A stretch of DNA of 34,474 nucleotides from Psittacicella gerlachiana (GTDB lineage: Bacteria; Pseudomonadota; Gammaproteobacteria; Enterobacterales; Psittacicellaceae). Below the pieces are notes generated by a model that had not been told where the DNA came from, searched no databases, and saw only the letters and a program-made list of their open reading frames with translations. This document shows, one piece after another, positions 2,516 through 34,350 of this stretch. The stretch spans positions 1 to 34,474 of the forward strand of contig NZ_NRJF01000023.1 in NCBI RefSeq assembly GCF_003585965.1, read 5' to 3'. Positions within the stretch are counted from its first letter, which is position 1. The number at the start of each line of letters is the position of its first letter. The translations under genes were made by a program, and so were the position numbers.

Positions 2516-3636
2516 TAGTTTTTATGTTCCCTTACACTTGCTAAAATTAGACTAATTAATCCATATAATAGTAACCCTATAATAAAGGTAGCAAAAATAT
2601 TATAGAGACGATTAGGTAATTCCGCTAAATCAGGTTTACTTGCTGGAGAAATTACTTCTAAATACAGTTGCTTACGACTAGCTTCGTCTTGAGCAGCTTG
2701 TAACGAGGTAATTGCACTTGTTAATTGCTGTAACGCCATGGTATTTTCAAGATTCAGGCGTTGATATTCTACACTTTGTCCAACTAAAGACTCATTATCA
2801 CCTACAACTTTTTTCATTTGTTCGGCAATTTCTGCCTCAAGAGATTTTTGTTTAATCTCTAAAGTACGAATTTGTGGACTTTGTGGTGCACTCGCTTTTA
2901 ACTGCGCAATTTGCGTTTGAATGGTAACTACTTGAGCTTGTAAGCTTTCAATTACTTGTAATAACGCCTGAGTTTGACTATTTACATCAAAGAGTCCATT
3001 TTTTATGCGGAACTCCATGAGTTCTTGAGCAGTTTTTATTGAATAATCTCGTGCTCGGTTTACATTTTCTTGAGCAAACTTAATTGCATCTCCATGAGCA
3101 CGATTATTAAGTTCGTTAATACGATTTTCGGCTAAAGCAATGAGTTTACGATTGATTTCATAGCCGTGTTCGGCAACAAATGCTTTAACTCTTAGAGTCG
3201 CAATTCCCGAAACCGAATCTATATTCATGCTCACTTGCTCACGAAAATATTGATAAAAAGCTTCATTACTCCCATTAAACCCTAGCGGATTAAATCGACT
3301 AAACCAGTCGCCACGATGACTATAATAAGCTTTTACTGGTAAATCTTGCTCTAATTCTTGTAAAGCAGCTCGTGAGGAGATAAAAGTTTGCACATTATAG
3401 GCATCATCAACTGACTTGCCTACGCCTACACTTGAGAGTAGACTCCCCATAGCACTCATGGTCGACTGACTATTAGCTGAACGTACCACAAAGGTAGACT
3501 CAGAAACATAAACCCGAGAAGCAATAATACCAAAGTAAAGAATTGAGATTAAAGTTGGGGCAACTACGAACAAGTAAAATAAAGGACTGAGCTTTTTTAA
3601 ACGCATTTTAACTTGTTCGCGCCAGTTTTTACTCAT
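2515..3636 (-). CDS. bexC: Capsule export inner-membrane/periplasmic adaptor (BexC/CtrB/KpsE family)
   Basis: This 373-residue polysaccharide co-polymerase-like protein links the inner-membrane ABC transporter to the outer-membrane channel. A basic N-terminus leads into a transmembrane helix at about 18-40, followed by a large periplasmic part with long predicted coiled coils (about 185-335, rich in Gln, Glu, Ala, Leu heptads), and a second transmembrane helix near the C-terminus (about 344-365) ending in Arg-Glu-His-Lys-Asn. This two-helix topology with a periplasmic coiled coil is the family layout. It starts 14 nt after bexD and overlaps bexB by one base. Confidence 0.92.
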   Translation of the reverse strand: MSKNWREQVKMRLKKLSPLFYLFVVAPTLISILYFGIIASRVYVSESTFVVRSANSQSTMSAMGSLLSSVGVGKSVDDAYNVQTFISSRAALQELEQDLPVKAYYSHRGDWFSRFNPLGFNGSNEAFYQYFREQVSMNIDSVSGIATLRVKAFVAEHGYEINRKLIALAENRINELNNRAHGDAIKFAQENVNRARDYSIKTAQELMEFRIKNGLFDVNSQTQALLQVIESLQAQVVTIQTQIAQLKASAPQSPQIRTLEIKQKSLEAEIAEQMKKVVGDNESLVGQSVEYQRLNLENTMALQQLTSAITSLQAAQDEASRKQLYLEVISPASKPDLAELPNRLYNIFATFIIGLLLYGLISLILASVREHKN

Positions 3637-7230: not shown

Positions 7231-8655
7231 TTAACCGAGTTGTGCTAAAGCTTTACTTATATACTCTTCGTCTGCACGTACTACATCGACAATATTCCCT
7301 GATTCTTTACTTGCAAGCACAAAAAGCGAAGCTAAGGCAACACTTTCTGGGTTAAGTAAACTTCCTTCAGGTTCGATCCCAAACGCTTGTACTCGCATCG
7401 GGGTTTTGGTGCGTTCAGGATTTATACAGTTAATACTAATTTGATCTTGTGCCCATTCATCAGCAATCGCTTGGGTAAAGTTCACAATTGCAGCTTTAGT
7501 TGCTGAATAAATCGAATAAAAAGCACGACCACGGGTATAAGAACTCGAAGTATAATTGAGTAAACTTCCTGCAGATTCTTTTAAGTAAGGGTAAGCAACA
7601 GTTGCTACATTTACTACCCCCGTAAAATTCACATTAATACTTTGGGCTACCTCTTGGGCATCCATATGAGCGAGAGGCTTATGCACTAAAGTCGCAGCTG
7701 TATTTACCACACAATCAATTCTGCCCTCTTGAGCATAAATTTGAGCAAAAGCTTCACTTAAGGCTTGATGATCGGCAACATCTACACCCGAAGAACGACT
7801 TAAAGCATAGGTTTTAATCCCCAAATTAAGTTTTTGGGCAAGATTAACTATGTCACTACCAATTCCATAGCTTCCTCCAACCACAACAATCACCGCATCT
7901 TTTAAGTTTTGTAAATAAGCCAGATCAGCTATATTTTTTAACGAAAACTGACTTCTACTTTGGAAAAGCTTATCGGCAATAAATAAATCTACCGGACGGG
8001 TTAATTTAATATTAGTCTCCGAGCCTAAAACTACGTACACTTTTTCTTGTGGTAGAGTTTTCATGACAATACCACAATCACAAGTTGCTACCATTCCAGG
8101 GGTGTTCTTGTAAATTTCATAAGCTTGCACTATAGTTTTTAACTTAAATGCTTGTGGCGTTTGCCCTTGGTAGTATTCACTACGTTTAGGAATTTCAATA
8201 ATGGTTTGGGTTTGCGGATCTACTTTAACAATTGTATCGGTTGCAGGAATACATACGTCTACAGCATTGTAAGTATCTAAAGCCTGAATACAATTGCTAA
8301 TTACTTCAGCGGCAAGTAAAGGACGTACAGCGTCATGAATAATTACTTTACTCTCACCATCTTCTTTTTCTAATGATTTAATCGCTGATAGGGTAGAATC
8401 TGTTCTTTCTTTACCACCGTAGACAATACGATTTACTTTGGTGTAATTATTTTGCTGAATAATCTCTGTAATTTTGGTGTAATGATTAGGTTCAGCTACG
8501 ATCACTATCTCATCGATTTGTTCATGCTCTTGGAAAATATCGATGGTGTGCTCTAAAGCAGTTTTTCCGGCAATCTTTGAAAATTGTTTAGGATAATTTA
8601 ATTTCATCCTACTGCCAACACCACCAGCAAGGATTACACCTATATTTTTACTCAT
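7231..8655 (-). CDS. acs1: Bifunctional CDP-ribitol synthase: ribitol-5-phosphate cytidylyltransferase / ribulose-5-phosphate reductase (Acs1/Bcs1)
   Basis: This 474-residue fusion makes CDP-ribitol, the donor for ribitol-phosphate polymers. Residues 1-230 are an IspD/TarI-type cytidylyltransferase, with Leu-Ala-Gly-Gly-Val-Gly-Ser-Arg-Met (9-17), Pro-Lys-Gln-Phe (22-25) and His-Asp-Ala-Val-Arg-Pro (107-112). Residues 250-474 are a short-chain dehydrogenase, with Gly-Gly-Ser-Tyr-Gly-Ile-Gly (260-266), the Asn-Thr-Ala motif near 318-320, and catalytic Tyr383 and Lys387 in the Tyr-Ser-Ala-Thr-Lys segment. The fusion and length match the Haemophilus influenzae type a/b capsule enzymes. An AGGA ribosome site precedes the ATG by 6 nt. 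Its presence is the strongest clue that the capsule contains ribitol phosphate. Confidence 0.93.
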
Positions 8656-14272: not shown

Positions 14273-17200
14273 TTACTCCTTGTCCTTTCTTTGTTGAGTA
14301 TCAAAAAATCTTGCAAAACGATAACCAAGATTTTCTAATTCTGCTTTATTACTATTTAAGTAGGTTTGCATTCCTAAATAGTTTGCTTGGAGTTTAGCAA
14401 AACCATTTGGAGCTAAGACTAGATTAGTTAAATCATGACCATTCCAATAGTAAGGTGATTTATACAGCAATGAACAATTTTGCGGTACGCTTACAAAGTC
14501 ACGGTTTTGATTAAAACTATCATAGCCCAGTTTTTCTTTTAGTAATACCCAAGGAGCGAGTTTACCAAAAGCTTTACTTCTCCAATAGTTTTGTTGCACA
14601 TGCAGAGAAAAATCTAAGAACAATAAGAACTCTTTCTTCGCTTGACTTCCAAAATACTTCGTAAAGTTCTGCAATAATTGCTGTTGCAGAGTACGTTTAT
14701 GCTCTTTATACTCAAGATCATTTTTGAGAATAAAGAGAGCAAAGGCATTAGTACGAAGATTTTTTGGTAATAAAGCAAATTCTTGCGGACTAAACTTAGT
14801 CACAGGGGTTCCTAAAGGATTTTGTAACGCTTGTTGTGAACTTACCATAGGTAGTTTTAAGGCTTTAGGTCGTTTTCTCCTTACGCCTTTTTCATTTACC
14901 GGAATAAAGTTCTCAACTTGAGCAAGTAATTTTGCATGTTTTCTTAATGCCTGATCTAAAGCAAAGAAATGCGTATAGTACTCAAGGAACTTAGGGTGAC
15001 TAAGTACTTGTTCTACTAAAGATAACTCAATATTGGTCGTTACCGCAATTACCCAAGCCATAAGTTTTACTTTGGTTTTGCGTTCGAGATCTGGCAGAGC
15101 CACTAATAAAGTAAGCAGATCTTCAAGATCTATAGCCTCTACCCCTTGAGTAATGTTATTGAACACTTGCACGACAAGTTCATATTGCTCAGGTTTGATT
15201 TTTGCGAGATGTTCAAGTTTGCCCTCTTGAGTTGCGGGAACAGGTTCAATTTTAGTTTCGGTCGCAATTACTACCGGAGGAGCAATATAGAGAGGTTTGC
15301 TTTCCTTAACTTCGACTTCGGTTACAGTCGTAAAGCGATTAATAAACTGATAAAAACGTTTACTTTGTAACTCTTGACGTTCATTAATGCGACGGTTAAT
15401 TAACCCCGTAAACTTGCTTAACGCAAAGATAGTATTGAGATTTAATTCCGAACGCCCCATTAAATCATTTACTTGCTTACCACGTTTGGTAACGATAAAG
15501 ACATATTTAAGAGCTGCTACATTAAGCAGTTTATACTGCTCTACAAAGTAATCTAAGGCTAACTTGAGTTCGAGATTACTATAATTATATTTTTGTAATC
15601 CTTGAGCTAGTCTTACTTTTAAGTAGTTGACACTTTTTGGCGTCATCTCTAAAGTAATATGCCCTTGCTTATGAAGTACAAACTCATTTTGCATTTGCTC
15701 AAAATGAGCAGCTCGTACTTTACGCTCACCTTCTCCGTAATAGTTCGCTATTTTTGCTAGGGTTGGTTGATCTCGATTGAGTTCTATAATCCCCATCTCT
15801 TTATTATAAAGCTCATCGAACTTCTCATTGAGTACTCTCATCCCGTTTATCGCTCCCGCTGGGGTAGAGCCACGGAGATATAACACGCGATAAGATTCTA
15901 TGAGATCTTCATAAAGCTCATTTACATAACGTCCGACACGATCGGTAGCTAATTGCGGATCAGTAATAAATTTGCGTAAGCGATTAAAACGAATAATGCG
16001 ACGGAACTTAAAGTGTTGACGTACCACTTGAGCACTAAAGAGTTCGACCATTACCGGATTAGCAATGCCAGGGAAACGAGCAATAATGCGGTTATACACC
16101 TCAGGATCTTTAAATTGCTCACGAATTTGTGCCACACTTAAATTCTCGAAATCCTCTTCCTTAAACTCTATATCATAGTATTTCACACTGAGTTCACGCA
16201 TTACAAAGGTCTTTAAGCACTCATCGAGTTCATTAAAGGTCTCATTAAACACGCGTTTAAAGACACGATCAGCAGTTTGTGGGAAAAAGTCATCTTCAAG
16301 TCTTTGACGATAAGTCATCTTCACTTGTTCACGACGTTTTAACTTGAACTCCGGAGTTGAGGCATAAGCAGACTCATCGTATACCGGTTCAGGTTTGCTA
16401 CTTGGAACTCCCGCTGCCTTAAAGTTCTCAAAGTTAAGATTTAAAGCCTCAAGCTTATCTTGCTCTTGAGCTTTTTTCCCTTTACGTTTGCCCTTACGAG
16501 ATTTTTGTTGATAAGCCTCAATTAACTCTACGGCAGTAATAAAGTCTTTTTCTTTAGCTTTATCATTTACCACTTCATCAACTTGAGCTACAACAATTGG
16601 ACGTAAACCTGCGGCTATTGCTTTGTCTGAAGTTTCACGGAGGAGTTTTTTATCTGCCCCTGCACTTAAGAGACGAGCAACTAAACGACACCATTCTACT
16701 TCAAGTTTCCACAGATCTTGCTCTACAGTTTTTACAATTTTTGCTTGAGCTTGTGGATCATTTTTTAAGCGTTGATACTCTTTGCTAATCATGCGAGCGC
16801 GTAGGTATAGACGCTCAAGACTGTTAAGACAAAGCTCAATCAAATCCTTAGCTTTATCACCCACTAGTTCACGAGCAAATTCTTGATCCTGCTTGTCAGC
16901 TTCCGAGACCAGCTCTTGGGGTTTTGAGCTTGCCATAATCCCATCAGCAAGATAACGTTCATTTAAAGTTAAAAGTTCTTCTACCTGGTTATTTAAAGCT
17001 TCTAACTCGGCTAAGAGACGTTGAGTAATCTGCTCTTGTAAACTACGTTCATGGGCACTGAGATTTTGTGGAAGTTGCTCTTGAACCTGCTCGTGTTTTT
17101 GTTTACCTTTATTAACGACATTGTTAATCAGGTCTTGAGTTTTACTCGCAAGATCCTCTTCTTGCGCTACCGCTTTGTAGGTAGCGGCTCCACCGAGCAT

Positions 17201-20200
17201 TTTTATTTGCTCAGCCAGTCCTTTTAATCTTGCCCCCGCTCGATTTAAAGTTGCTCTAAGGATATTACGATCAATCCCTCGTTCTTGCGTAACCGCAAAA
17301 AGATTACGGACTAATTCAAGGAGATCAATTTGCTCTTTTTGTAACCATTTACGGTAAGTGGTAATATTTTGGGTTACTTCACGCAGATTATCAATAATTG
17401 GGCTACGCTCATACTCATTAATTACCGCTCGCTCCATATTAAAGGTCATACTATAGGCAAGATTACCCATATCCCCATAAGCAGCTTTGAACTCACTCTC
17501 GTATTTTTTGAGAATTTCTTCATAAATTTGCATAGAGGCTGTAAAATCAGGGGCACTTACTTTGGTTCCTAGTTTACGTAACTCAGGATAAACCACTTCA
17601 GCAAAAGCTCCCATGAGTTTAGCAATCTCTTGCTCTCCTGGAATTTGCGTTGTCTGTGCCTTTAAGCCTTGGTTTTGGGCAAAACGAGCGATTGCTCCTG
17701 CTAGAGTTTGTTTAAAACTTGGTAACTCATGGCTCTTACGGACACGATATTTCAAGCTCGTTCTTTCAATACCACGCAGAGCTTTAGGTAGTTTTGCATA
17801 CTCAGGTTGAGTTGGTAAAAAATGATGCCCAAGAATCGAGTAAGCTTGTTCAAGGTTACCACAATTGTAAACTATTTGTGGCCAACGTCTTGGATCTTCA
17901 GTTCGAGGTAAACTCATTCTTGGCTTAAGCTCAAACTCAGGGTTTACCGGCAGGCGTAAAAGTTCTTCGCGATCACTAAAGTGATAGAGACGATTTCTCA
18001 TCCCCGCATCTCCCACGACCCAATTAGCAAAATTATATTTGAGATTATGCATCATACTCATAATTTGCCCATCAGGATTTTGGGTATAGCTTTGCTCTAA
18101 ATAACCTAGGTCATTATCAAAGAGAGCTCGCTCATAAGGCGGAATTACTAGTAGTTTAGGTTTAATGCGGGTATAAGAGAAGTTACTATCAGCTCGTTGG
18201 ATTTTACCTTCGCTCGTACGTGACTGCCCACGATAGAAGATTACATCTAAGCCCACATATAACTTAAACTCTAAACGTTTTAAGTCGACAAAGTTAATCA
18301 GACTTTGGAGGTTATAGTGACTTGCTACTAGTGGTAAACCTAGTTTCTCTTCTTGTAAGAAAATGGTCGCTTCATTCGGACGTACTGCACTATCACTATA
18401 CTTAAAGAGACTGCTATAAGCTAAAGTATTGGCAAACTCTACTTGAGCTTTAAGTTTAAGTAAACTCTTATAGTTTTTCTTAATAAAGTTCAGATCAATA
18501 ATTTGCTTACTATAGCGTCCGCGAGTTTGGGTCTTAGCTACTTCCCCAGTTGCCTCAAGCTCTCGAACTTGAACTCTAGGCATGTTTTTGCTTAGAGGCA
18601 CGCCAAGGTCATCTCTTGCTATTTCCTCAGTTTGAGTTCTCGTAAGAGTACTAGTTACAACCTCTTGCTCACCACGTAATTTCGCTAAAGCTTGAGCTAC
18701 CGTGAGTCCAAAAATTCCCGCCTGCTTAAAGCTATGTACTACTTTTGCCACAAGAGGACTTGCCACTTGATCTAAATAATCTTGCGCTAAGTTATCAATT
18801 AGTTGCTCACTAAATGGATTAGCCACCTCTAATGCAGATTCTGGGACTAAGACCTCACTTAGTCTTGGTAGGTCGCCCGCTTCAATTTGATTTCTTACTT
18901 CGCTCGTAACTCTGAGGATGACATGAGCTAATTCTATTCCTCGTAAACGTTTGAGGTAGTATTCCTCTAAAGTAATATGCCCAAGAGCAAATTGCACGGT
19001 TAAGAACTCAGTAAAGAAAGTAAATTCATGGTACTTATAGAGAATCTGATCCTCTACCCCAAAAATATAGTTAAAGCCGAGTTCATTTGCCTGCTCAGAG
19101 TTTTGTAAGAGGTCATTGTAAATTTCATGGAACACACTATGTTCAACTAAGACATCCCAAGCAAATTCTGATTCGGGATAATCTTTGAGTTCAGCAAGGA
19201 AGCGAGCTAAAGAAACTCCGACCTTCTCTTCATAGCTTTTTCCGGTAGCCATCTCTAAAGCATTAGCATTAAAGCCCTGCTTCGCAGTAAAGGTATCTGC
19301 CCCTAAGTTGTCTACCAGTTGACGCTTAAAGTTTAGTTTACGAGCAAAGATTTTGGCTAGGGCGTGATCTAGTTCTTTAAAGTTATGTTTATAGCGAGCG
19401 ATTACGCTTTCCGGTGTGTTACTCGGGAAAATCCGCTCAATAAAACTTAACTCCGAAAAATAATAGATCTCAGCTAAACCTATGTATTCAACAAAAGTTT
19501 GTCTAATTATCCCAGGTAAGCAAAGATCTATATCTTTGGCTTCAGATAATTGCTTAGCCACTTTAACAAACAAGTTATCTTCTTGGACAAGATTGTGATT
19601 AATCGCACTTAAGTAGTCTAACGCAGTTAAGCTTGGGACTTGTTTAAAGCTCTCAACATATCTCTCACAATTTATTGGCGTTGCCAATTCGCGGTCTTCG
19701 AGGCAATCGATTTCTCGCTCTATCAGTTGCCTCGCTTGCTCGGCTTCTTGCCCGCTCATAAATACCGCAAGAATTTCATCAATCGCATGGAGCAGTTGAA
19801 TAATAATATCTTGAGCTCGAGCTACTAGTTCCTCTACTTCAAGATCATCAGTACTTTGTTTAAGAACCTTAGCTCCTAACTCATGTAAAGGACGACTTAA
19901 AAGTCTAAAGCCCATAAACTGATTAATTGGTTCAAGGACACTGAGAATATCAGCGGTTAATACCATCCCTGCTTCATACCCACCTACAGGCGAGAGATAA
20001 CTCCCACGTTTGAGTTGCATATCACCAAAGGCTTGAGCATAAAGTTGCTTGTAGTTTAACTCAAAAACCTCTAAAGCAAGATCTTCTAAAGTCTGAGGAT
20101 ACTCACCCTTTTGAGCTAGTTTGAGATAATTTTTTTCTTTAACCTCTTCTACGTACGCCTCTCGCTCCTCAAAATATTCAAACAATTGCTCATGGAAACT

Positions 20201-21547
20201 ATCCGGCACAGGGGGATCATTAACATCTAGAGGTTCAAGGAAAAAAGCATTGCCATCGAGCATCCCTAAAGGCATGCTCTTACTAATGGTATCTTCTTCA
20301 ACTTGAGCTCGTTCTTCACCACGGATAATCAGTAACCCTAAACGTCTTTCAAGGGTTAAGAAAGCATAGTAAGGATAGGTTTTAGCGATATAAGGTAGTT
20401 CTAAACTAAAGAACTCTCCAACTTTTTCATCCCAAGCAGCAGGAGTGGTACCTCCCACGATTTCATGACTACTTGGAGTAAAGTATTTGTCGATTTCGCC
20501 AACAAACTCATAGCCATTCTTTTTCTTGCGTTCGCCCTGACTTTGCTCCTGCTCAAGACGCCATTGCTCGATTTCTTGCTTAAACTTATCTCTTTCGGCA
20601 AGAGCTATTGGTGATTCAGTATAGAGGGTATAACCTTGTTTAGAGTTAATGCTCTTAGGCAAAGCTTGCATTGAAGTTAGAGCCTGTGCCTCTCCACTTG
20701 GAGTTGAAATTTCTTTGCTAGTTTTGCGAGTCGAACTTTTTCTTGATTTAGCTTTAACCTTGAGCTTTTGCTCAATCTCATCAAGATAGTCCTCGAGATT
20801 AACTAAAGGATACTTTTCTTCATACGCAAAAATTAAATTATCAAGGACGTGATGCTCACGCAGTCCCTCAATCCCCATTTCTACAAAGGGAGTAAGGTTT
20901 TTTACCACTTGAGCCGGCTCTTGTTGCCAAGAAGTACGTAACTGACCGTGGAGCTGTTCTAAACGCTCTTTTACTCCTTGGTAATAAGCATGATAAGACG
21001 CTTCTTCGAGCTTGAGCTTTTTGAGATCCACAAAATTATTAGTTTGTGGTTTTATCTCTTTACGTAACTCAATAGTTTGACGTAAAGCTTGAGCAGCTTT
21101 GTCTATCTCTTGTAAATCTTGTTCATGTTCTTTAACAAATTTACCAATTGAAGTTAAAAAGAGTTCAGTATGCTTTTGCTCTAAATAATATGTATTTTGC
21201 GTTGCTTGATCATAAACTAAGAGTCCAATATCCGGAGACTGTCCTCCGATATATACCGGAATATGGTTTAAGTCCGTACCCGCTTGTTGAGCTAACTGCG
21301 GATCGAGATTTAAACTAAACTCTTGTTGTGCTTTTTCTCCTAAACGTAAGCCCGTATAGGTAGAACGATTATCAAAGAAACTATGATAATCAAAAGTATT
21401 TGCTCCAACAAAGTCTTTAAGGTTAGTATGCTTACCTTTAATTACACTTGGAGCAGAATCTAAAATTAAATAGTGCTTGGCTTTTTTCATGCCAAAAGTT
21501 TTGGCATCATAATGAAAAACAAAGTACTTATTTAAAATATTTTGCAT
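14273..21547 (-). CDS. Giant protein A, 2424 residues, family not recognised
   Basis: A single uninterrupted frame of 7.3 kb. There is no signal peptide and no convincing transmembrane segment, so it is predicted to be cytoplasmic. It is rich in Lys and Glu and looks mostly helical with coiled-coil-like parts (for example about 1500-1560). Low-complexity Lys/Ser/Thr linkers at about 260-300, 1670-1700 and 2080-2120 divide it into at least four blocks. I see no Walker, protease, nuclease or toxin motif and no tandem repeat. It starts 12 nt after rsmE with only a weak AGG site, so it is the last gene of thiI-rsmE-giant A. It shows no clear similarity to giant B despite near-equal length. A structural scaffold or a lineage-specific effector are guesses only. 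The intact length argues that it is under selection. Confidence 0.85.
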   Translation of the reverse strand: MQNILNKYFVFHYDAKTFGMKKAKHYLILDSAPSVIKGKHTNLKDFVGANTFDYHSFFDNRSTYTGLRLGEKAQQEFSLNLDPQLAQQAGTDLNHIPVYIGGQSPDIGLLVYDQATQNTYYLEQKHTELFLTSIGKFVKEHEQDLQEIDKAAQALRQTIELRKEIKPQTNNFVDLKKLKLEEASYHAYYQGVKERLEQLHGQLRTSWQQEPAQVVKNLTPFVEMGIEGLREHHVLDNLIFAYEEKYPLVNLEDYLDEIEQKLKVKAKSRKSSTRKTSKEISTPSGEAQALTSMQALPKSINSKQGYTLYTESPIALAERDKFKQEIEQWRLEQEQSQGERKKKNGYEFVGEIDKYFTPSSHEIVGGTTPAAWDEKVGEFFSLELPYIAKTYPYYAFLTLERRLGLLIIRGEERAQVEEDTISKSMPLGMLDGNAFFLEPLDVNDPPVPDSFHEQLFEYFEEREAYVEEVKEKNYLKLAQKGEYPQTLEDLALEVFELNYKQLYAQAFGDMQLKRGSYLSPVGGYEAGMVLTADILSVLEPINQFMGFRLLSRPLHELGAKVLKQSTDDLEVEELVARAQDIIIQLLHAIDEILAVFMSGQEAEQARQLIEREIDCLEDRELATPINCERYVESFKQVPSLTALDYLSAINHNLVQEDNLFVKVAKQLSEAKDIDLCLPGIIRQTFVEYIGLAEIYYFSELSFIERIFPSNTPESVIARYKHNFKELDHALAKIFARKLNFKRQLVDNLGADTFTAKQGFNANALEMATGKSYEEKVGVSLARFLAELKDYPESEFAWDVLVEHSVFHEIYNDLLQNSEQANELGFNYIFGVEDQILYKYHEFTFFTEFLTVQFALGHITLEEYYLKRLRGIELAHVILRVTSEVRNQIEAGDLPRLSEVLVPESALEVANPFSEQLIDNLAQDYLDQVASPLVAKVVHSFKQAGIFGLTVAQALAKLRGEQEVVTSTLTRTQTEEIARDDLGVPLSKNMPRVQVRELEATGEVAKTQTRGRYSKQIIDLNFIKKNYKSLLKLKAQVEFANTLAYSSLFKYSDSAVRPNEATIFLQEEKLGLPLVASHYNLQSLINFVDLKRLEFKLYVGLDVIFYRGQSRTSEGKIQRADSNFSYTRIKPKLLVIPPYERALFDNDLGYLEQSYTQNPDGQIMSMMHNLKYNFANWVVGDAGMRNRLYHFSDREELLRLPVNPEFELKPRMSLPRTEDPRRWPQIVYNCGNLEQAYSILGHHFLPTQPEYAKLPKALRGIERTSLKYRVRKSHELPSFKQTLAGAIARFAQNQGLKAQTTQIPGEQEIAKLMGAFAEVVYPELRKLGTKVSAPDFTASMQIYEEILKKYESEFKAAYGDMGNLAYSMTFNMERAVINEYERSPIIDNLREVTQNITTYRKWLQKEQIDLLELVRNLFAVTQERGIDRNILRATLNRAGARLKGLAEQIKMLGGAATYKAVAQEEDLASKTQDLINNVVNKGKQKHEQVQEQLPQNLSAHERSLQEQITQRLLAELEALNNQVEELLTLNERYLADGIMASSKPQELVSEADKQDQEFARELVGDKAKDLIELCLNSLERLYLRARMISKEYQRLKNDPQAQAKIVKTVEQDLWKLEVEWCRLVARLLSAGADKKLLRETSDKAIAAGLRPIVVAQVDEVVNDKAKEKDFITAVELIEAYQQKSRKGKRKGKKAQEQDKLEALNLNFENFKAAGVPSSKPEPVYDESAYASTPEFKLKRREQVKMTYRQRLEDDFFPQTADRVFKRVFNETFNELDECLKTFVMRELSVKYYDIEFKEEDFENLSVAQIREQFKDPEVYNRIIARFPGIANPVMVELFSAQVVRQHFKFRRIIRFNRLRKFITDPQLATDRVGRYVNELYEDLIESYRVLYLRGSTPAGAINGMRVLNEKFDELYNKEMGIIELNRDQPTLAKIANYYGEGERKVRAAHFEQMQNEFVLHKQGHITLEMTPKSVNYLKVRLAQGLQKYNYSNLELKLALDYFVEQYKLLNVAALKYVFIVTKRGKQVNDLMGRSELNLNTIFALSKFTGLINRRINERQELQSKRFYQFINRFTTVTEVEVKESKPLYIAPPVVIATETKIEPVPATQEGKLEHLAKIKPEQYELVVQVFNNITQGVEAIDLEDLLTLLVALPDLERKTKVKLMAWVIAVTTNIELSLVEQVLSHPKFLEYYTHFFALDQALRKHAKLLAQVENFIPVNEKGVRRKRPKALKLPMVSSQQALQNPLGTPVTKFSPQEFALLPKNLRTNAFALFILKNDLEYKEHKRTLQQQLLQNFTKYFGSQAKKEFLLFLDFSLHVQQNYWRSKAFGKLAPWVLLKEKLGYDSFNQNRDFVSVPQNCSLLYKSPYYWNGHDLTNLVLAPNGFAKLQANYLGMQTYLNSNKAELENLGYRFARFFDTQQRKDKE

Positions 21548-24415: not shown

Positions 24416-24431
24416 TGTGATCTAGATCACA
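24416..24431. promoter_or_regulatory. CRP-cAMP binding site, perfect palindrome
   Basis: TGTGATCTAGATCACA is the consensus CRP core with perfect symmetry, flanked by A-rich sequence on the left and GTTT on the right. Its centre is about 70 bp upstream of the start predicted for the TATAAT at 24482-24487, a class I activation distance. Confidence 0.92.
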
Positions 24432-24481
24432 GTTTGGAACTTTTAGGTAAAATTTTTTTAAATTCCTTAATTTTTAAAGCT

Positions 24482-24487
24482 TATAAT
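24482..24487 (+). promoter_or_regulatory. -10 element of the CRP-dependent promoter
   Basis: Perfect TATAAT. The -35 position 17 nt upstream (24459-24464) is poor, as expected of an activator-dependent promoter. The start should be near 24494. Confidence 0.7.
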
Positions 24488-24493
24488 ATAAAT

Positions 24494-24599
24494 AACATAC
24501 ATCTCTCATATATAAATGTCTCTGTTTGCTCTGACAAAACACTTGTTAGAGTACTTGTAATCTAAAAAGGTTAACTTGGTTAACCTTTGTAGATTTTTT
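24494..24599 (+). ncRNA. Candidate CRP-activated small RNA, about 106 nt
   Basis: Between the predicted start and a strong terminator lies a short RNA with no significant frame. A 9-bp hairpin (24529-24537 with 24543-24551) contains one G-U pair in plus-strand RNA that would be a C-A mismatch on the other strand, supporting this orientation. The terminator (24559-24575 with 24579-24595, one mismatch, 3-nt loop) ends in a U tract up to 24599. About 35 nt of single-stranded 5' region remain for target pairing. It does not look like Spot 42 or CyaR. Alternatively it is an attenuated leader, but no plus-strand gene follows for over 700 nt. Confidence 0.65.
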
Positions 24600-24807: not shown

Positions 24808-24877
24808 CCTCTTGTATCGCTTTTGAGGTATTTGGAACCTCCTTGAGTTCTTCCAATCGAGAGATTCGGTTACACAT
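24800..24877 (-). CDS. Possible 25-residue small protein within a stem element
   Basis: The ATG at 24877 is preceded by AAGGG at about 8 nt and lies inside stem element 3. The peptide begins Met-Cys-Asn-Arg-Ile-Ser and ends Glu-Val-Cys, helical in character. An internal AGGAGG on the minus strand is part of a small hairpin. Confidence is low because short frames are common in such sequence. Confidence 0.2.
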   Translation of the reverse strand: MCNRISRLEELKEVPNTSKAIQEVC

Positions 24878-24903
24878 ACTGTCTACCCTTGAAAGCGATA
24901 CAA
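24812..24903. other. Stem element 3 of the intergenic array
   Basis: Perfect 12-bp arms TTGTATCGCTTT (24812-24823) and AAAGCGATACAA (24892-24903). Inside are a 5-bp hairpin GAGGT/ACCTC (24825-24829 with 24837-24841) and a 6-bp hairpin (24853-24858 with 24863-24869, one bulge) capped by GAGA, a GNRA tetraloop in plus-strand RNA. It shares the nonamer GAACCTCCT with element 1. Confidence 0.55.
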
Positions 24904-24905
24904 CC

Positions 24906-24998
24906 TTACTTATGTAATCTTAAAGGTATTATCTTAGTTAGCTCGCCTCCTAAACCCCGTAGCAAGATTAACATTAAATCTAGTGCTAAATCTAACAT
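24906..24998 (-). CDS. Possible 30-residue hydrophobic small protein within a stem element
   Basis: The ATG at 24998 lies in the loop of stem element 4. The peptide starts Met-Leu-Asp-Leu-Ala-Leu, has a hydrophobic first half and a basic end (Leu-Arg-Leu-His-Lys). It could be a small membrane peptide, but no ribosome site precedes it. It resembles the frame at 24601-24699 in its second half. Confidence 0.2.
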   Translation of the reverse strand: MLDLALDLMLILLRGLGGELTKIIPLRLHK

Positions 24999-25042
24999 TA
25001 AAACAACTAGGTTAAACCCTCGAGGTTTAAGAGGCGAGCCAA
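24938..25042 (-). other. Stem element 4 of the intergenic array, folds best as minus-strand RNA
   Basis: Nineteen-base arms at 24938-24956 and 25024-25042 match at 17 positions. In minus-strand RNA both exceptions are G-U pairs, giving a continuous 19-bp stem; in plus-strand RNA both are A-C mismatches. This points to the minus strand as the functional RNA. An 11-codon frame (25062-25027) with an AGGGA site ends inside the 5' arm and could be a leader peptide. Confidence 0.6.
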
Positions 25043-25250
25043 CCGAAAATACATAGAGGCATGATTTTTTCCCTAGAAAATCAATAGAAAATTCAATAGA
25101 AAATAAAAACTAACTAGTAAAAAACTAGCTACATAAATAAAAAACTAATTAAGCAACAACTATAAAATATAACCTCAGTCGTAAAGTTTTTTCTTAAAAA
25201 TCTTTACCATGACATAATTTTTTTCGAATCCTTTCATATAGAGTCATCCT
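25043..25250. other. AT-rich stretch without visible gene
   Basis: It contains a short repeat of the type CAATAGAAAATT (about 25081-25105) and an ACTAGT-centred hairpin near 25112-25128. Nothing else is recognised. Confidence 0.35.
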
Positions 25251-25251
25251 C

Positions 25252-25333
25252 TATAATACATAAGTGTAGTGTAAATTTACTTTTATACTAACCGAGCCTA
25301 CCAGAATCTTATCCGTAAGATTCTGGTTTTTTT
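25252..25333 (+). ncRNA. Second short promoter-terminator unit, possible 70-nt RNA
   Basis: A TATAAT at 25252-25257 predicts a start near 25264. A perfect 11-bp hairpin (25301-25311 with 25316-25326, UCCG loop) followed by seven T (25327-25333) ends the unit. No frame of note lies between. The -35 is weak. It could be a small RNA or the 3' end of a longer plus-strand transcript. Confidence 0.5.
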
Positions 25334-25336
25334 ATA

Positions 25337-26946: not shown

Positions 26947-29900
26947 ATGCAAACCAATCTGCCATATCGCTTACCAGTTTTTGCCTTTCATGGAAGTAAT
27001 TCGCTACTTGAACTCGCAAGTCAACTCCACGCTCAAGTTGAGCTTTATGACTTTGCTCAAGCCTATACTTACCGTGGCATTGCTAACTGGAAGTTTCATA
27101 GTTTACCGTTTCTCAGTGAACTAGCTCTTGACGGCTATCGTCAAAATACCGAACTTAACTATGTAGAGACCCCGCTTTTCCCTGAAAAAGTTTTTCAGTA
27201 TAAACTTATAGGTCGCCAAAGTTTACTAGCGGCGGCCGTACGCAAAACCATTCCTTTTGCTCAATTAGATAAGTCCCTATACAATCTCAACGTATATCGC
27301 TTAGCTTATGCTAATCTTTATCAAAACTTCCCTGCAGTACTGAGCCTTGAACCTAATCAACTCCAACCTCAATATTTAGGTTATCTACCGGCGACGCCAG
27401 CTCAGTCTTCAGAGATAGTTTATCCTTATCCGGTACTCGATGTAGATCGTTCTTACTTCCGCCGGATTATGCACTTTTATTATGGCAATGCTTACAATGT
27501 TGAGGATATGCAAGCACTCAACTACTTTGCGAGTTTAGGGCCAAAAGCTTCCCTCTACTTAAAAGACTATAACCAGCAACTTGCCAATTTTGATTTAATT
27601 TACCCCTTTAAACAAGGAGGTAATGAACTGGTAGTTAAATATTTCCAAGAGCAAATAGTTCCGCTCTCGCTAACTTCGCTAGAGAAATTTACTACCTACT
27701 ATCCACAACGCAAAGTAGCGGTGGGGTTACAATATCCGACTCCTCAGCAAACGAGTACTTTAAGTCCAAGTCTTGCCTTACCAGCAGAGATTCAAGAGCA
27801 TCTCCACCAGCTTGCTCCTTATGTAGGAGCAACCAAGGAACGTGAACCAGCAGGCTTTAAAGCCTTAGGGAGTTACCTCTACTTCCTCGAGTTAGCAGCT
27901 CTTGAACAGGAACAAACAAGAAACAATCAAGCAAGCAACAAAAAGCAAAGCAAAGCAACTAGCAAAAAGCAAAAACCAGCATTGATTTTGCAAGAGGTAT
28001 TTCCTCACTCTTACTTAGCTAGCACTTATCTTACCCAAGGGGTAATGGCACAAACCTATGGTCAACTAGCAAGCCAAAGTGCAAAAATTTGGCAAGCAAA
28101 TGAGAGCCAAAGCCTTGCAACCAAACTGCAAAAGCTAGCAACTTTTAATAAAAAAGCAGCCGGTAAAGCTCCGAAGAGCAAACAAATTGCTCAATTACTC
28201 GAGCAAGCTTTAGAGCAACGCCAAACCTTTGCTCATGCAGATTGGTTAAGACGCGAAAACCAATATCACCACTATGTAAGCTGGGCGAATCAATTTGGTA
28301 AACTTGCAGATATCAATCAGCTCGGTGAAGATCATGATTTTGATGATCGTCGAAGTAAAGAGTTTACTATTTCTCCCATGCTTGCAAGTAGCTATGACAC
28401 GAGTCTAAGTACTCCAAGTGCTTTAGATAAGGACTTCTATTTACTCAATAGTTATACCTTTGCTACCACCTCACGTCTGTTTGCCGAGTACAATCACTTT
28501 GGTTTAACTAACCCTTGGCATTTTGTGAATCCTCAAGCTCCTGTAGCTTTAACGGTGAGTGCTAACCAGCGTCTTACCCTAGCTCGTTATGAGGTGATCC
28601 ATCAGGATCTGCGCGTAACTCCATTAAATGCTCCAAGATATTTAGAAGATCCTTTAGCCTTAGCTTTTGAGCAGATTATCTATCGCACTCTATTAGTTAA
28701 TGCTCAACTTCGCAAAGACTTCTATACCGCATTATCTCCGTTTAGTGTGGCTAATGCTCAAGCTCTAGGCTCACTGCTTCCAACCGAGGAAGAACAAGAT
28801 AAGCAAGCAAATAGTAGTGTTCAAGAGCAAGCAAACAGCAGTGCTACAGAACAAACAAACTCTAGAGTTGTAGAACAAGCAAACTGCAATACTGATCTAA
28901 GCAAGGGATATCCGGTACAAAAACTCTTGTCGCCAGTGGCTGAAAAACTCTTAAATCAGCAAAGCTCTCAAGGTTTTGAGCTAGCATTAGAGTATCCTTT
29001 ATCGACTTGGTTACAAATGTTCCCTCAGCACCTCTGGCATTTCCGTAAAGCCAAAGAGGAGTTTCTTGGGGGCAAAACTCAAGGGCAAACTTTTGCAAGT
29101 TACCGCTTCTTAGGTGCAGTTTTCTATCAAGTTTCGGTCGAGCAATTACCTCGCGTGAGCTATCCTTATCTCCAACATCCGGATACAGCTCTCTATTTTG
29201 CCAAGACTTTATACTTACAAATGTGTGAAATTAGCAAAACTCTTCCTAAACGTAAGAGCTATGATAATTTACTCATGAAGTCTTTATATAACCGTAGTGC
29301 TTATCTTGCTCTGTTGGCGAACCATAGTTTTGCGAGCTTTAATGCGGGTACTAATACCGAGCCCCCAAGTTACTACTTACGTTTAACTTTAGATAACCTT
29401 GCTTATCCCATTGCCGAGGCAGAAGCTTCTCCTTTAGGAGCTGATTTTGACTATAGTTTAACGCCACTATATCTTGATGTATTTGCTCAAGAAGTAAAGT
29501 TAGCCCAAGAAAGTAGCTATCAAGCAAAAAATGCTCAAGCTCGTAAACAGGCACAACTACAGCCAGAACCTTTTGCGAACTATAAATCACCGCAAGAGTT
29601 ACTCACAAGCTACAACTTGCCAACGACAAGATGGCAAAATATTGCCAGTGCGACTCTAGATCCGCAGGTCTACACTTATGATGCTGATCCGTTTATAAAT
29701 CAGCTCCAATTTAGAAACAATCTTGATCCGTTTAACTACAGCGAAGCTCCTTTAATGCGTAATGCTTCGGATCTGTTTAATAACTATCCCCACTTTGCTG
29801 AGTTCTATGAACGTTTACATCTAGATTTAACTCTAACTAATAGTGTGTTCTTAGCGAGTAAAGAAGCAGTAGATGGGTACTTTACTACTCTAGGACAAGA

Positions 29901-32900
29901 ACTCAATGATAAGCTCACCTTTGTCAGTGAACAAATTCGTAAAGCTTTTGTGATCCCTAGCTTAAGTGAGCGTCAGCAGAGCTATCAGCAAAGAGATGCT
30001 CAACTAATTCTTGTTCCTCTACCCCTAAAAACCAAGGCTTCGCCTCTAGAGGCAGATCTCGAAGTTAAACTCCAAAAATGGCAAGTACATCTCACAGCTC
30101 AAGACTATGAGCAGGCTCTTACTAACTGGCAAAGTCAGCAACAGCTGTTAGCTTATCCGGTAGCTACCGATACTTTAGAACTGTGGTTTATTTACCAGCT
30201 CCTTGGAGCCGAGAACTTGCCTTTTGTGCAAACGGGATTAGATCAAATTAACTTAGCGTTATTCCTCAAAAGTCTTGAACCGGTAGTGCAACAGGCTTAT
30301 GAACTAAGTCCACGTGATCTCGAGCGTTATAAAACTTCATTTGCTCAAATGTTTGCTCGCTTAGGTCTAGAGTTAACCCCAGAGCAGATGCACGAGCATC
30401 TCCAAAGTTTAACTCCAGCCCAACTAGCAGAGTTTATTCACGCTGCTCGCATGAGTGCTCCTTTAGCCCCAAGGGCTAAAACTATCAACTTACCTAGGTC
30501 TTTAGCTTGGTTAAAGGATTTAGAGCATCAAGGTACTCCTAGTAACCTTGCTGAACTCGTCCAAGCTCTGACTGTTGAAGAAGTAGAACTGGCTATTGCT
30601 TATATTGCTCAACTAGATGGAATAACTCTGTGGCAAGCTAACTGGCAAGCCCAACAACAGGTGCAACAACAAGCCCAACTAGCAAGTAAAACTTTAGTTG
30701 CTCCCCATAATCCACAAGCTTTACAGACTCAAGCACAACTGGTAGTGAACCAAGTAGACACCTTTAGTGCTTACTTAAGTCCGGGCTTACGCTTAGCTCC
30801 AAGTACCAGCTACCCGCTTCTAAGCATGCAAGAGGTAATTAAACAAGAGTTACCTTTTGCCACGCAAATGGCTTTTTGTGATCTCCAATATGCAACTTTA
30901 GAGATGCCTAGTTTAGAGCAGTTTGCTCAAAGCCAACAAGCTTATCTCTGGCAAACTATCCTCCCATGGATGAGTCAAGAGCAACAACAAATACTTACTG
31001 CAAGTAAGTACCAGTTAGAGCAGGCTTTAACTCAAACTCTCTTTACCCCAGGACAAGGAACAAGACTATATCTTACTACTTGGAAAGAACAGTTAATAAA
31101 ACTCCTCAATATTAAAGGGGAAACAGCCTTAGCTTTACGTTGCTTAAGCCAACATCCAAGTAGAGTTTTTGCGGATAGCCTCGGGATTCTCTATCCACAA
31201 CAAGGATATAGAGCCAGCGATGCTCTTGTTGATGGTCTCTTTAGTCGTTTCCATATTTTTAGTGAGCAAGATCACGAACACACCAAGGTCGCAACTCTTA
31301 CTGGAGAACTAGAACTAGGTAAACTCAGCGCTCCGCTGTTAAATCTGTGGCAACAATCTGGGTTAACCTCGCAACAACTGGCACAGGTATTAGCTACCTC
31401 ACCAGAAACCGCTGGTTTACTCGAGAAGCAACGTCTTGCGCCAGGATTTGCTAACTACTTCCGTGCTTACCTTTACTTTGGGGTATTACCACAGCTCTTA
31501 GCCACTCCAGTATTCAACTTAGAGCAAATGCAACAACAGCTAGATAAGGCTGTAGAGTTTGCTCTCAAAGATCAACAGCAAGCTGCTTGGCTCAAACTAG
31601 AAATGACTACTCCTGAGTTAGTACACCAAGCTTATGCTTATACTTTTAACACGCTAAGTGAGTTAGCGGCTAAGCCTCAAGAGGGAAGTAAAATTCTCGC
31701 TCAAAGCATCGGCTCGCAGTTCTATCTGCTCAATGAACAAAATAAAATTGAGCCTTTAAAAGCTCAAACTATTGCAGAACTTGAAGGTTACTTTAAAAAT
31801 GTTTATTACCCTTTAAACTATGATTATCCACATACAAGCGTGAAGCAAATGTCAGCAAGATCCTTAACCTTAACCATGGATCCTAAGTACTTGCTCTTTA
31901 AAGGGTATTTAACCGGTAATCGTTACCTCTTTACCGTAGATGCTTGTCAAAAAGATCAGCTCCAAAAGTATACCTCTCGTAACTCTTTTGATTTCTCTTT
32001 TGAGTTAGAAACTGATAAACCACAGCCACCACTCCCAAAAATCTTTGACCTCATGTTTGAGGACTTTAATAAGTTTGTTAAAGATCAGGGAGAGGCATGG
32101 CAAAGCGAAAATCAATTATTGCAAGAGCCAAGAAAAGTTGGTACTCGCCACTATTATCAAAATAGCTCGAGTTACCAACTGCATCAAGTTCTCTCTAGTA
32201 ATTTACACCAGCAAGTTTTAAGATACTATCAACTGGGAAATCTCAATGTCCAAGATAACCCTCTTGCCAAACAAGAACTCTATTTTGTTCGCGACTATAC
32301 TAATCTTGGACTCTACAATAACCTGTGGTTAGAAATAGATAAAATTAATTTTATCTTTAACTCAGGAATCAAAGAAGCAAGCGTAAGATATAGCTTACCT
32401 CTATATATGCCTCTTGCCGATAATCCTGAAGTAGTTCTTCCTAACCCAGCTTATGTGAAGAGTTTAACCCCGACCCATATTGCACAGTTCCAGCAATTGT
32501 GGCAATTTAATCGTCAGTTCTTAAATCTTGACTACTACAAGACTTTAAATAAACAGGTTGCTAGTGACTATGCTCAGTTAATTGAGTTAATCCAAGCCCA
32601 AGACTTAAATCTTGCTCATTTCTACTTCTCGCAAGCAGGAGAAAAACTTTATCAACTATTCTTAAGTCAGACTTTTGCTGAACGTGAAGTAGCAAGAAAT
32701 CTTGTGTACCTTGAAGGACTTAACCAAGTACCTCAAGCTCTCTACTTACCAGCTCGTCCACTGCATTTACTCTATGCAACTAGTGAAGAAAGTGGCTACC
32801 ATGGTGAGCAAAGCCAAGAGATTATTGCCACCTTTAAGGCACATGCCCAAATTCTGCAACAAAAACTCTTTAATGCTTTACTGCGTCAATATGATTGGGT

Positions 32901-34350
32901 ACACAAGTACCAAAATCTGCCACGAGCAGTGAGTTCTTTAGTTACCTTGCCTTTTGAGTCTTTAACCCATTGGCGGGTAACTATAACTAAGGCTCCGTTT
33001 TACTCAGCAACGCTAAATCAACAAGCCTTACATGAGTTTGTTGCTCATAAACTCTTGGGACATCAACTCCAAACCCAAAATGCAGAGCATTTAACTTGGA
33101 CAGGAGTAGCTCCAGTTAACTATAAAGATCCAGGATTACTCGAGCAAGCATTAATCTATCATCAGCTCAAAGGCGAGCAGTTCTTTAAGACAACTTCGCA
33201 TTCTCAACTACAAGCCTTTAAAGATAAGTTACAACAAGCTTATCTATATTTACAAAGCCAAGCTCCGGACTTTGTGTATAAACTCAACTTCCATGCTTGT
33301 GGGATAGATGCTAATCGCTTTAATGAAGAACAAGCGTTAATCCAACAAACGCTAAGTACTTGGGCTTATGAAGATCTGCAAGCTAAATACTACAATGAAA
33401 CTAAAGCTTACTTTAGTACCCTCAATGAAGTATTTAATATGCAAGATCTCCAACAAGAAGAAACCTCTCCGAGTCCAGCGGTAAATACCCCTATAGTCTC
33501 GCTCGATGATGAGGAACAAGAACTTGCGCAAATGCTTGAGAGCGTAGACTTTGCTCGGATTGCTCGAGAACAAGACGACTTTATTCAAGAGCCAAATTAT
33601 ACCTATGAAGAATATGCCTTTACTTGTCCACAAACCTTAGCTCCTACTTTAGGATGGGAACAAGAGCCGACAAGCAAAGATGCTATGCAAGTAGAACTCG
33701 CTCTTCTTAATTTCCAAAAAGCGAGTCAGGTAGTCACTCCTGAGCAAGTACAACCTAAGGAATCTAAGTTAACTACAACAAGTACTAGCATAAATTTACG
33801 TGAACTTTATCAACTCTATCTCCAAGGAAAAGAACCTAGTCTAGAACAAATCTACCAAACCATTAATCTTTTCCCTTACTGGAGTTTTAAAGATAAAGAG
33901 ATCAACGCCCAAAGCTTTAAGCAACGTTGTCACTTAATTGCTAAGGTTCTTCTCCATCAATTAAGTAAGTTAAACAATAAAACTAAAGCTTTGAGTTTAG
34001 AAGAGCTAAACATCTTATTTAAGGCTCTGTATCGTCAATTTATGCAAATAAAAGTAATGTTGGTTGCTGATTATCGTTTACTAGAAGAAATTAGCAATCT
34101 CGATCTAGAGTTAAGATCTTTACCTTATCTCTACTTTTTACCAGCAAAAGATAAATACTTGGCTTGGGTCAAAGCCAACCAACAAGAGGTTAGCTTCCCA
34201 GCTGCCGTACTCTATCATCACCAAAGCAAAGCTAGCTTCTTTGCCCAGCTTTGTAATGAGTTGGCACAAGCTCAAGCTCAAAGTCTTGAAATTGTCGAAA
34301 CTACAAATTGGTATCCATATCTTGGACGCCTACGTAAGTTCTATGCTTAA
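26947..34350 (+). CDS. Giant protein B, 2467 residues, family not recognised
   Basis: One uninterrupted 7.4-kb frame. No signal peptide or clear membrane helix, so probably cytoplasmic. Composition is dominated by Gln, Leu, Ala, Tyr and Ser, unlike the Lys/Glu-rich giant A. Low-complexity linkers lie at about 319-345 (Asn/Gln/Lys/Ser) and 620-651 (an 8-residue repeat, four copies), and an acidic one at about 2170-2215. The N-terminus is rich in Tyr, Pro and Phe. Helical segments with Gln-rich surfaces (about 1220-1260, 1340-1380) could be coiled coils. I see no catalytic motif of a known enzyme. It has its own promoter behind the lpxH terminator and ends in its own terminator. The ATG lacks a strong ribosome site. 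Function unknown. Confidence 0.85.
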   Translation: MQTNLPYRLPVFAFHGSNSLLELASQLHAQVELYDFAQAYTYRGIANWKFHSLPFLSELALDGYRQNTELNYVETPLFPEKVFQYKLIGRQSLLAAAVRKTIPFAQLDKSLYNLNVYRLAYANLYQNFPAVLSLEPNQLQPQYLGYLPATPAQSSEIVYPYPVLDVDRSYFRRIMHFYYGNAYNVEDMQALNYFASLGPKASLYLKDYNQQLANFDLIYPFKQGGNELVVKYFQEQIVPLSLTSLEKFTTYYPQRKVAVGLQYPTPQQTSTLSPSLALPAEIQEHLHQLAPYVGATKEREPAGFKALGSYLYFLELAALEQEQTRNNQASNKKQSKATSKKQKPALILQEVFPHSYLASTYLTQGVMAQTYGQLASQSAKIWQANESQSLATKLQKLATFNKKAAGKAPKSKQIAQLLEQALEQRQTFAHADWLRRENQYHHYVSWANQFGKLADINQLGEDHDFDDRRSKEFTISPMLASSYDTSLSTPSALDKDFYLLNSYTFATTSRLFAEYNHFGLTNPWHFVNPQAPVALTVSANQRLTLARYEVIHQDLRVTPLNAPRYLEDPLALAFEQIIYRTLLVNAQLRKDFYTALSPFSVANAQALGSLLPTEEEQDKQANSSVQEQANSSATEQTNSRVVEQANCNTDLSKGYPVQKLLSPVAEKLLNQQSSQGFELALEYPLSTWLQMFPQHLWHFRKAKEEFLGGKTQGQTFASYRFLGAVFYQVSVEQLPRVSYPYLQHPDTALYFAKTLYLQMCEISKTLPKRKSYDNLLMKSLYNRSAYLALLANHSFASFNAGTNTEPPSYYLRLTLDNLAYPIAEAEASPLGADFDYSLTPLYLDVFAQEVKLAQESSYQAKNAQARKQAQLQPEPFANYKSPQELLTSYNLPTTRWQNIASATLDPQVYTYDADPFINQLQFRNNLDPFNYSEAPLMRNASDLFNNYPHFAEFYERLHLDLTLTNSVFLASKEAVDGYFTTLGQELNDKLTFVSEQIRKAFVIPSLSERQQSYQQRDAQLILVPLPLKTKASPLEADLEVKLQKWQVHLTAQDYEQALTNWQSQQQLLAYPVATDTLELWFIYQLLGAENLPFVQTGLDQINLALFLKSLEPVVQQAYELSPRDLERYKTSFAQMFARLGLELTPEQMHEHLQSLTPAQLAEFIHAARMSAPLAPRAKTINLPRSLAWLKDLEHQGTPSNLAELVQALTVEEVELAIAYIAQLDGITLWQANWQAQQQVQQQAQLASKTLVAPHNPQALQTQAQLVVNQVDTFSAYLSPGLRLAPSTSYPLLSMQEVIKQELPFATQMAFCDLQYATLEMPSLEQFAQSQQAYLWQTILPWMSQEQQQILTASKYQLEQALTQTLFTPGQGTRLYLTTWKEQLIKLLNIKGETALALRCLSQHPSRVFADSLGILYPQQGYRASDALVDGLFSRFHIFSEQDHEHTKVATLTGELELGKLSAPLLNLWQQSGLTSQQLAQVLATSPETAGLLEKQRLAPGFANYFRAYLYFGVLPQLLATPVFNLEQMQQQLDKAVEFALKDQQQAAWLKLEMTTPELVHQAYAYTFNTLSELAAKPQEGSKILAQSIGSQFYLLNEQNKIEPLKAQTIAELEGYFKNVYYPLNYDYPHTSVKQMSARSLTLTMDPKYLLFKGYLTGNRYLFTVDACQKDQLQKYTSRNSFDFSFELETDKPQPPLPKIFDLMFEDFNKFVKDQGEAWQSENQLLQEPRKVGTRHYYQNSSSYQLHQVLSSNLHQQVLRYYQLGNLNVQDNPLAKQELYFVRDYTNLGLYNNLWLEIDKINFIFNSGIKEASVRYSLPLYMPLADNPEVVLPNPAYVKSLTPTHIAQFQQLWQFNRQFLNLDYYKTLNKQVASDYAQLIELIQAQDLNLAHFYFSQAGEKLYQLFLSQTFAEREVARNLVYLEGLNQVPQALYLPARPLHLLYATSEESGYHGEQSQEIIATFKAHAQILQQKLFNALLRQYDWVHKYQNLPRAVSSLVTLPFESLTHWRVTITKAPFYSATLNQQALHEFVAHKLLGHQLQTQNAEHLTWTGVAPVNYKDPGLLEQALIYHQLKGEQFFKTTSHSQLQAFKDKLQQAYLYLQSQAPDFVYKLNFHACGIDANRFNEEQALIQQTLSTWAYEDLQAKYYNETKAYFSTLNEVFNMQDLQQEETSPSPAVNTPIVSLDDEEQELAQMLESVDFARIAREQDDFIQEPNYTYEEYAFTCPQTLAPTLGWEQEPTSKDAMQVELALLNFQKASQVVTPEQVQPKESKLTTTSTSINLRELYQLYLQGKEPSLEQIYQTINLFPYWSFKDKEINAQSFKQRCHLIAKVLLHQLSKLNNKTKALSLEELNILFKALYRQFMQIKVMLVADYRLLEEISNLDLELRSLPYLYFLPAKDKYLAWVKANQQEVSFPAAVLYHHQSKASFFAQLCNELAQAQAQSLEIVETTNWYPYLGRLRKFYA
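28804..28899 (+). repeat. 24-bp tandem repeat inside giant B, four degenerate copies
   Basis: It encodes four 8-residue units at residues 620-651: Gln-Ala-Asn-Ser-Ser-Val-Gln-Glu, Gln-Ala-Asn-Ser-Ser-Ala-Thr-Glu, Gln-Thr-Asn-Ser-Arg-Val-Val-Glu and Gln-Ala-Asn-Cys-Asn-Thr-Asp-Leu. The period of a multiple of three preserves the frame, so copy-number change would alter only linker length. Confidence 0.85.

Follow-up and report, generated by a model that had tools for sequence, protein, structure and literature searches.

The thiI-lpxH intergenic region

The window (the whole stretch of DNA that was analyzed, 34,474 nucleotides in length) features a 1.5-kb intergenic stretch between thiI and an lpxH-like gene. 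The product of the latter matched NCBIfam NF003743 with a score over the cut-off, and its matches among solved structures were also LpxH-like; a Pfam search with this protein yielded no match. The order of the two genes was the same in three congeners, which marks the window as part of a genome of Psittacicella, a parrot-associated genus. The relatives used for comparison were P. melopsittaci B96_4 (hereafter M), P. hinzii B96_3 (H3), and P. hinzii 111 (H111). No ORF or small protein between thiI and lpxH was conserved across the four genomes. H111 has an additional protein-coding gene between thiI and the CRP site described below (L054, reverse strand, about 1830-2395), whose sequence suggests a YagU-like product.

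Two very large proteins of 2424 and 2467 amino acids, encoded at 14273-21547 (- strand) and 26947-34350 (+ strand), flank the thiI-lpxH region; neither had a match in Pfam. An IspD-like cytidylyltransferase fused with an SDR-type reductase is encoded at 7231-8655 (- strand) and adjoins polysaccharide-export genes.

The features assigned to the intergenic stretch were as follows:

24416-24431, no strand assigned: perfect CRP palindrome TGTGATCTAGATCACA, the only zero-mismatch TGTGAN6TCACA within the window
24482-24487, + strand: perfect -10 hexamer TATAAT
24494-24599, + strand: predicted 106-nt transcript, with the putative start placed seven bases past the -10
24527-24553, + strand: 11-bp hairpin with two G-U pairs (24527-24537 with 24543-24553), from folding of this strand
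24559-24599, + strand: intrinsic terminator, a long A/T-rich stem of 16 bp followed by a T run (dG -14.7)
24810-24906, + strand (as suggested by the downstream terminators): structured element with a 10-bp outer stem (24814-24823 with 24892-24901)
24859-24882, + strand: invariant core of the element, GAGAGATTCGG..CACATACTGT
25300-25334, + strand: intrinsic terminator directly upstream of the lpxH-like gene (dG -13.1), the predicted end of a longer transcript

The CRP site and its promoter

CRP is a sugar-starvation regulator. The pattern TGTGAN6TCACA occurred at seven sites in this genome vs. one for a reversed control pattern, and at 14-17 sites per genome in the relatives vs. 2-3 for the control; perfect CRP sites thus exceed the number expected by chance. 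The syntenic thiI-lpxH regions of M, H3, and H111 carry the sites TGTGATCTAGGTCACA, TGTGATCTACTTCACA, and TGTGATCTAGTTCACA, respectively, with one or two changes each, such that 14-15 of the 16 bases are kept. Four-fold sites in thiI were 38-51% identical among Psittacicella vs. 28-31% at saturation. Because synonymous sites are therefore nearly saturated, the matches between the CRP sites were taken to reflect selection.

A perfect TATAAT lies downstream of the CRP site in all four genomes. In the window it begins 50 bp past the site, and a good -35 is absent; the corresponding gaps in M, H3, and H111 are 39, 60, and 50 bp. If transcription starts seven bases past the -10 (position 24494 in the window), the CRP sites would be centered at about -70.5 in the window, -59.5 in M, -80.5 in H3, and -70.5 in H111, i.e. 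one helical turn apart. When sites were placed at random, a TATAAT at a gap of 30-70 bp in all four genomes was obtained once in 200,000 trials, and helical phasing in addition was obtained in none of 200,000. At class I promoters of E. coli, CRP activates from -60.5 to -62.5, from -71.5/-72.5, and from -81.5/-82.5, most clearly around -61.5, -71.5, and -81.5/-82.5, where activation is strong, and it is inactive at -66.5 and -76.5 (PMC6301791). The Psittacicella centers fall within 1-2 bp of these active positions, with the proviso that -59.5 was not measured in that study (PMC6301791). Like class I promoters such as lac, the putative promoter combines a consensus-type palindrome some 60, 70, or 80 bp upstream, on a single helical face and at a phased distance from the -35 region (given the assumed start), with a weak -35; unlike them, it would drive a non-coding stretch from a start that is itself predicted.

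The organism also encodes the proteins that such a promoter would use. A CRP was detected in each of the four genomes, scoring below the strict NCBIfam cut-off for the E. coli-type equivalog; the CSRETVGR helix is kept in all four predicted proteins, and the CRP of the window genome could be aligned over 200 residues with its E. coli counterpart, with both CSRETVGR and DAMTH kept. Adenylate cyclase (CyaA) was likewise detected in the four genomes, as partial matches. These cyclase matches (L094-L097) sit within very long open frames of 1834-3487 amino acids.

Conservation in four genomes, helical phasing, and the presence of genes for CRP and adenylate cyclase together make a conserved CRP-dependent promoter between thiI and lpxH in Psittacicella a well-supported prediction, at which CRP would act as an activator, not a repressor. 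An earlier note on this DNA had described a perfect CRP palindrome about 70 bp upstream of a predicted start, a perfect -10, and a poor -35. These were borne out (24416-24431, centered at -70.5 for a start at 24494, and TATAAT at 24482-24487), and the link to CRP gained strong support from the four-genome conservation and the phasing.

Predicted transcripts and the structured element

The RNA from 24494 to 24599 was predicted to fold at -27.8 kcal/mol (z -4.66), a value equalled by none of 200 shuffles. Its hairpin at 24527-24553 did not form when the minus strand was folded, in keeping with the strand preference proposed in the earlier note; the stem comprises the nine base pairs noted there plus two. 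The strong terminator, expected about 106 nt downstream of the start, was located at 24559-24599; the positions given in the note agreed to within one base. This terminator has no counterpart at that place in the relatives. When 59 genomes were searched with this region by BLAST, the 106-nt body was found nowhere else, the relatives matched at the CRP site only, and the other matches were dismissed as short, A/T-rich chance matches. The intergenic regions of the four Psittacicella genomes, BLASTed together, also shared little beyond the CRP site. The near-saturation of synonymous sites renders this failure compatible with a diverged RNA. No Rfam family matched the region at the gathering threshold, and a permissive search gave no credible or relevant family, which agrees with the prior judgment that this is not a known CRP-linked RNA. 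A 14-aa ORF (ATG at 24516) might conceivably be translated, although no ribosome-binding site is evident for it and it lacks a counterpart.

The designation of this stretch as a complete small-RNA gene thus held in part: it is supported only by this genome's own sequence, and neither the body nor the early terminator was found in the relatives, for which longer transcripts are predicted. With a body that is not conserved and an early stop confined to this genome, the 106-nt RNA may be incidental.

Transcript ends were predicted from intrinsic terminators by folding. The first good terminator in the relatives lies about 0.75-1.9 kb downstream of the promoter: a strong hairpin followed by a long T run first occurs at 1454-1482 in M and at 3023-3047 in H3, and candidates in H111 begin at about 3881. 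Folding gave no support to an early candidate in H3 that had been spotted by eye (AGATTA...TAATCT, then a T run). Since an early terminator was found in this genome alone, the short RNA appears to be peculiar to it, with longer transcripts predicted in the relatives.

Further downstream of the CRP promoter, at 24810-24906, is the structured element, which was placed on the strand carrying the terminators that precede lpxH. The element was found in three of the four genomes, one copy each (the others at L052, 1333-1430, and L053, 541-644, - strand). Its stem shows four double compensatory changes, and the core, which occurs once per genome in these three and is absent from H111, has 21 bases that are invariant among them. 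A covariance model of the element returned one match in each of the three Psittacicella genomes and none in H111; outside these three, no convincing match was encountered among the 119 genomes searched. The core pattern was not found in viral contigs, and the element had no Rfam match. It may be a more constrained product than the 106-nt RNA. A seven-base match between AUCUCUC in the small RNA and GAGAGAU in the element was set aside, because inspection of M by eye revealed no equivalent. Between the element and the last terminator, at 24937-25043, lies a long imperfect inverted repeat with 23-nt arms spaced 61 nt apart, for which the relatives showed no equivalent.

Hfq is the usual small-RNA chaperone. 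The four draft Psittacicella genomes (86-92% complete) yielded no match to it, and a control search recovered E. coli Hfq. At two inspected loci (L098 and L099), the gene after miaA is rdgB-like and not hfq. A literature search on loss of Hfq found nothing. ProQ was detected in two of the four genomes and was not found in the window assembly; CsrA-like proteins are present in Psittacicella. Because Hfq was not found in four genomes, themselves 86-92% complete, an Hfq-dependent, CyaR-like mechanism is unlikely, and assignment to the class of Hfq-dependent trans-acting small RNAs, which calls for an encoded Hfq, was not made; for the same reason, the Hfq pull-down that had been proposed as a check is of doubtful use in this genus.

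Known RNAs offer partial parallels. CyaR (RyeE), an enterobacterial small RNA, is activated by Crp (PMC9002310); the Psittacicella RNA resembles it as a short, predicted CRP-cAMP-activated RNA that ends at an intrinsic terminator, and differs in that the 106 nt match neither its sequence nor the RF00112 covariance model and in the apparent lack of Hfq. Spot 42 (spf) is also a CRP-controlled RNA of about 100 nt, but it is repressed by CRP-cAMP (PMC5991649), whereas the Psittacicella geometry predicts activation, and its covariance model (RF00021) was unmatched. CsrB and CsrC are similarly non-coding RNAs with multiple hairpins; a CsrA sponge of this type was rejected, as GGA motifs were not enriched in the predicted transcripts.

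Interpretation of the locus

The explanation that we favor, and consider probable, is a genus-specific, non-coding transcription unit that lies between thiI and lpxH, is activated by cAMP-CRP, and has a short form in this strain. CRP-cAMP would bind at 24416-24431 and, in class I fashion, use the alpha C-terminal domain of RNA polymerase to bring the enzyme to a -10 that lacks a good -35, so that, at high cAMP levels, transcription would begin near 24494. Most transcripts of this genome would stop at 24599, yielding a 106-nt RNA whose 5' third is single-stranded and is followed by a hairpin and the terminator stem. In the relatives, which lack the early stop, transcripts would run on toward the terminator before lpxH, and those of two relatives would contain the conserved structured element. 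The RNA would most likely act as a regulator, either by Hfq-free base pairing through its unstructured 5' region or through the downstream structured element.

It is conceivable, if doubtful, that the main product is instead a longer CRP-activated, Hfq-independent non-coding RNA of about 0.75-2.3 kb, ending before lpxH and having the new, genus-specific element at 24810-24906 as its working part; the hairpin at 24559-24599 would then be a leaky or regulated, lineage-specific attenuator that yields the short RNA here. M, H3, and H111 have no comparable terminator near the promoter (M has only weak candidates before the element), and an intrinsic terminator sits right before lpxH in all four genomes with no conserved ORF upstream. 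The compensatory pairs and invariant core of the element point in the same direction, as does the fold of the predicted 842-nt RNA of the window genome (z -7.76, from only 20 shuffles). Against this, the terminator at 24599 appears strong in this genome, H111 lacks the element and has several further terminator candidates inside the stretch, and the element may be served by a promoter of its own.

That the promoter is real yet a remnant, or drives unimportant transcription, with an RNA devoid of function, seems unlikely. The RNA body could not be aligned between genomes and the predicted transcript lengths differ widely, as such a remnant would have it, but the site, the -10, and the helical phase have been kept despite near-saturated synonymous sites, which would be unexpected of a remnant. 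Control of thiI or lpxH, the neighbors on each side, by the CRP site as a distant regulatory site or through a long leader is highly improbable, given that the distances are large and vary among the four genomes (about 0.5-2.9 kb to thiI and 0.9-2.5 kb to lpxH), terminators precede lpxH in all of them, and the thiI side has no TATAAT within 120 bp.

On sequence grounds, we thus regard the conserved CRP-dependent promoter of this non-coding locus as real and the short RNA in this genome as plausible. To our knowledge, examples of small RNAs under CRP control come chiefly from Hfq-using enterobacteria and vibrios. In Psittacicella, where Hfq was not found, a conserved CRP promoter that serves a non-coding locus would show how carbon status is signaled by RNA without this chaperone, and the locus also points to a new structured RNA element.
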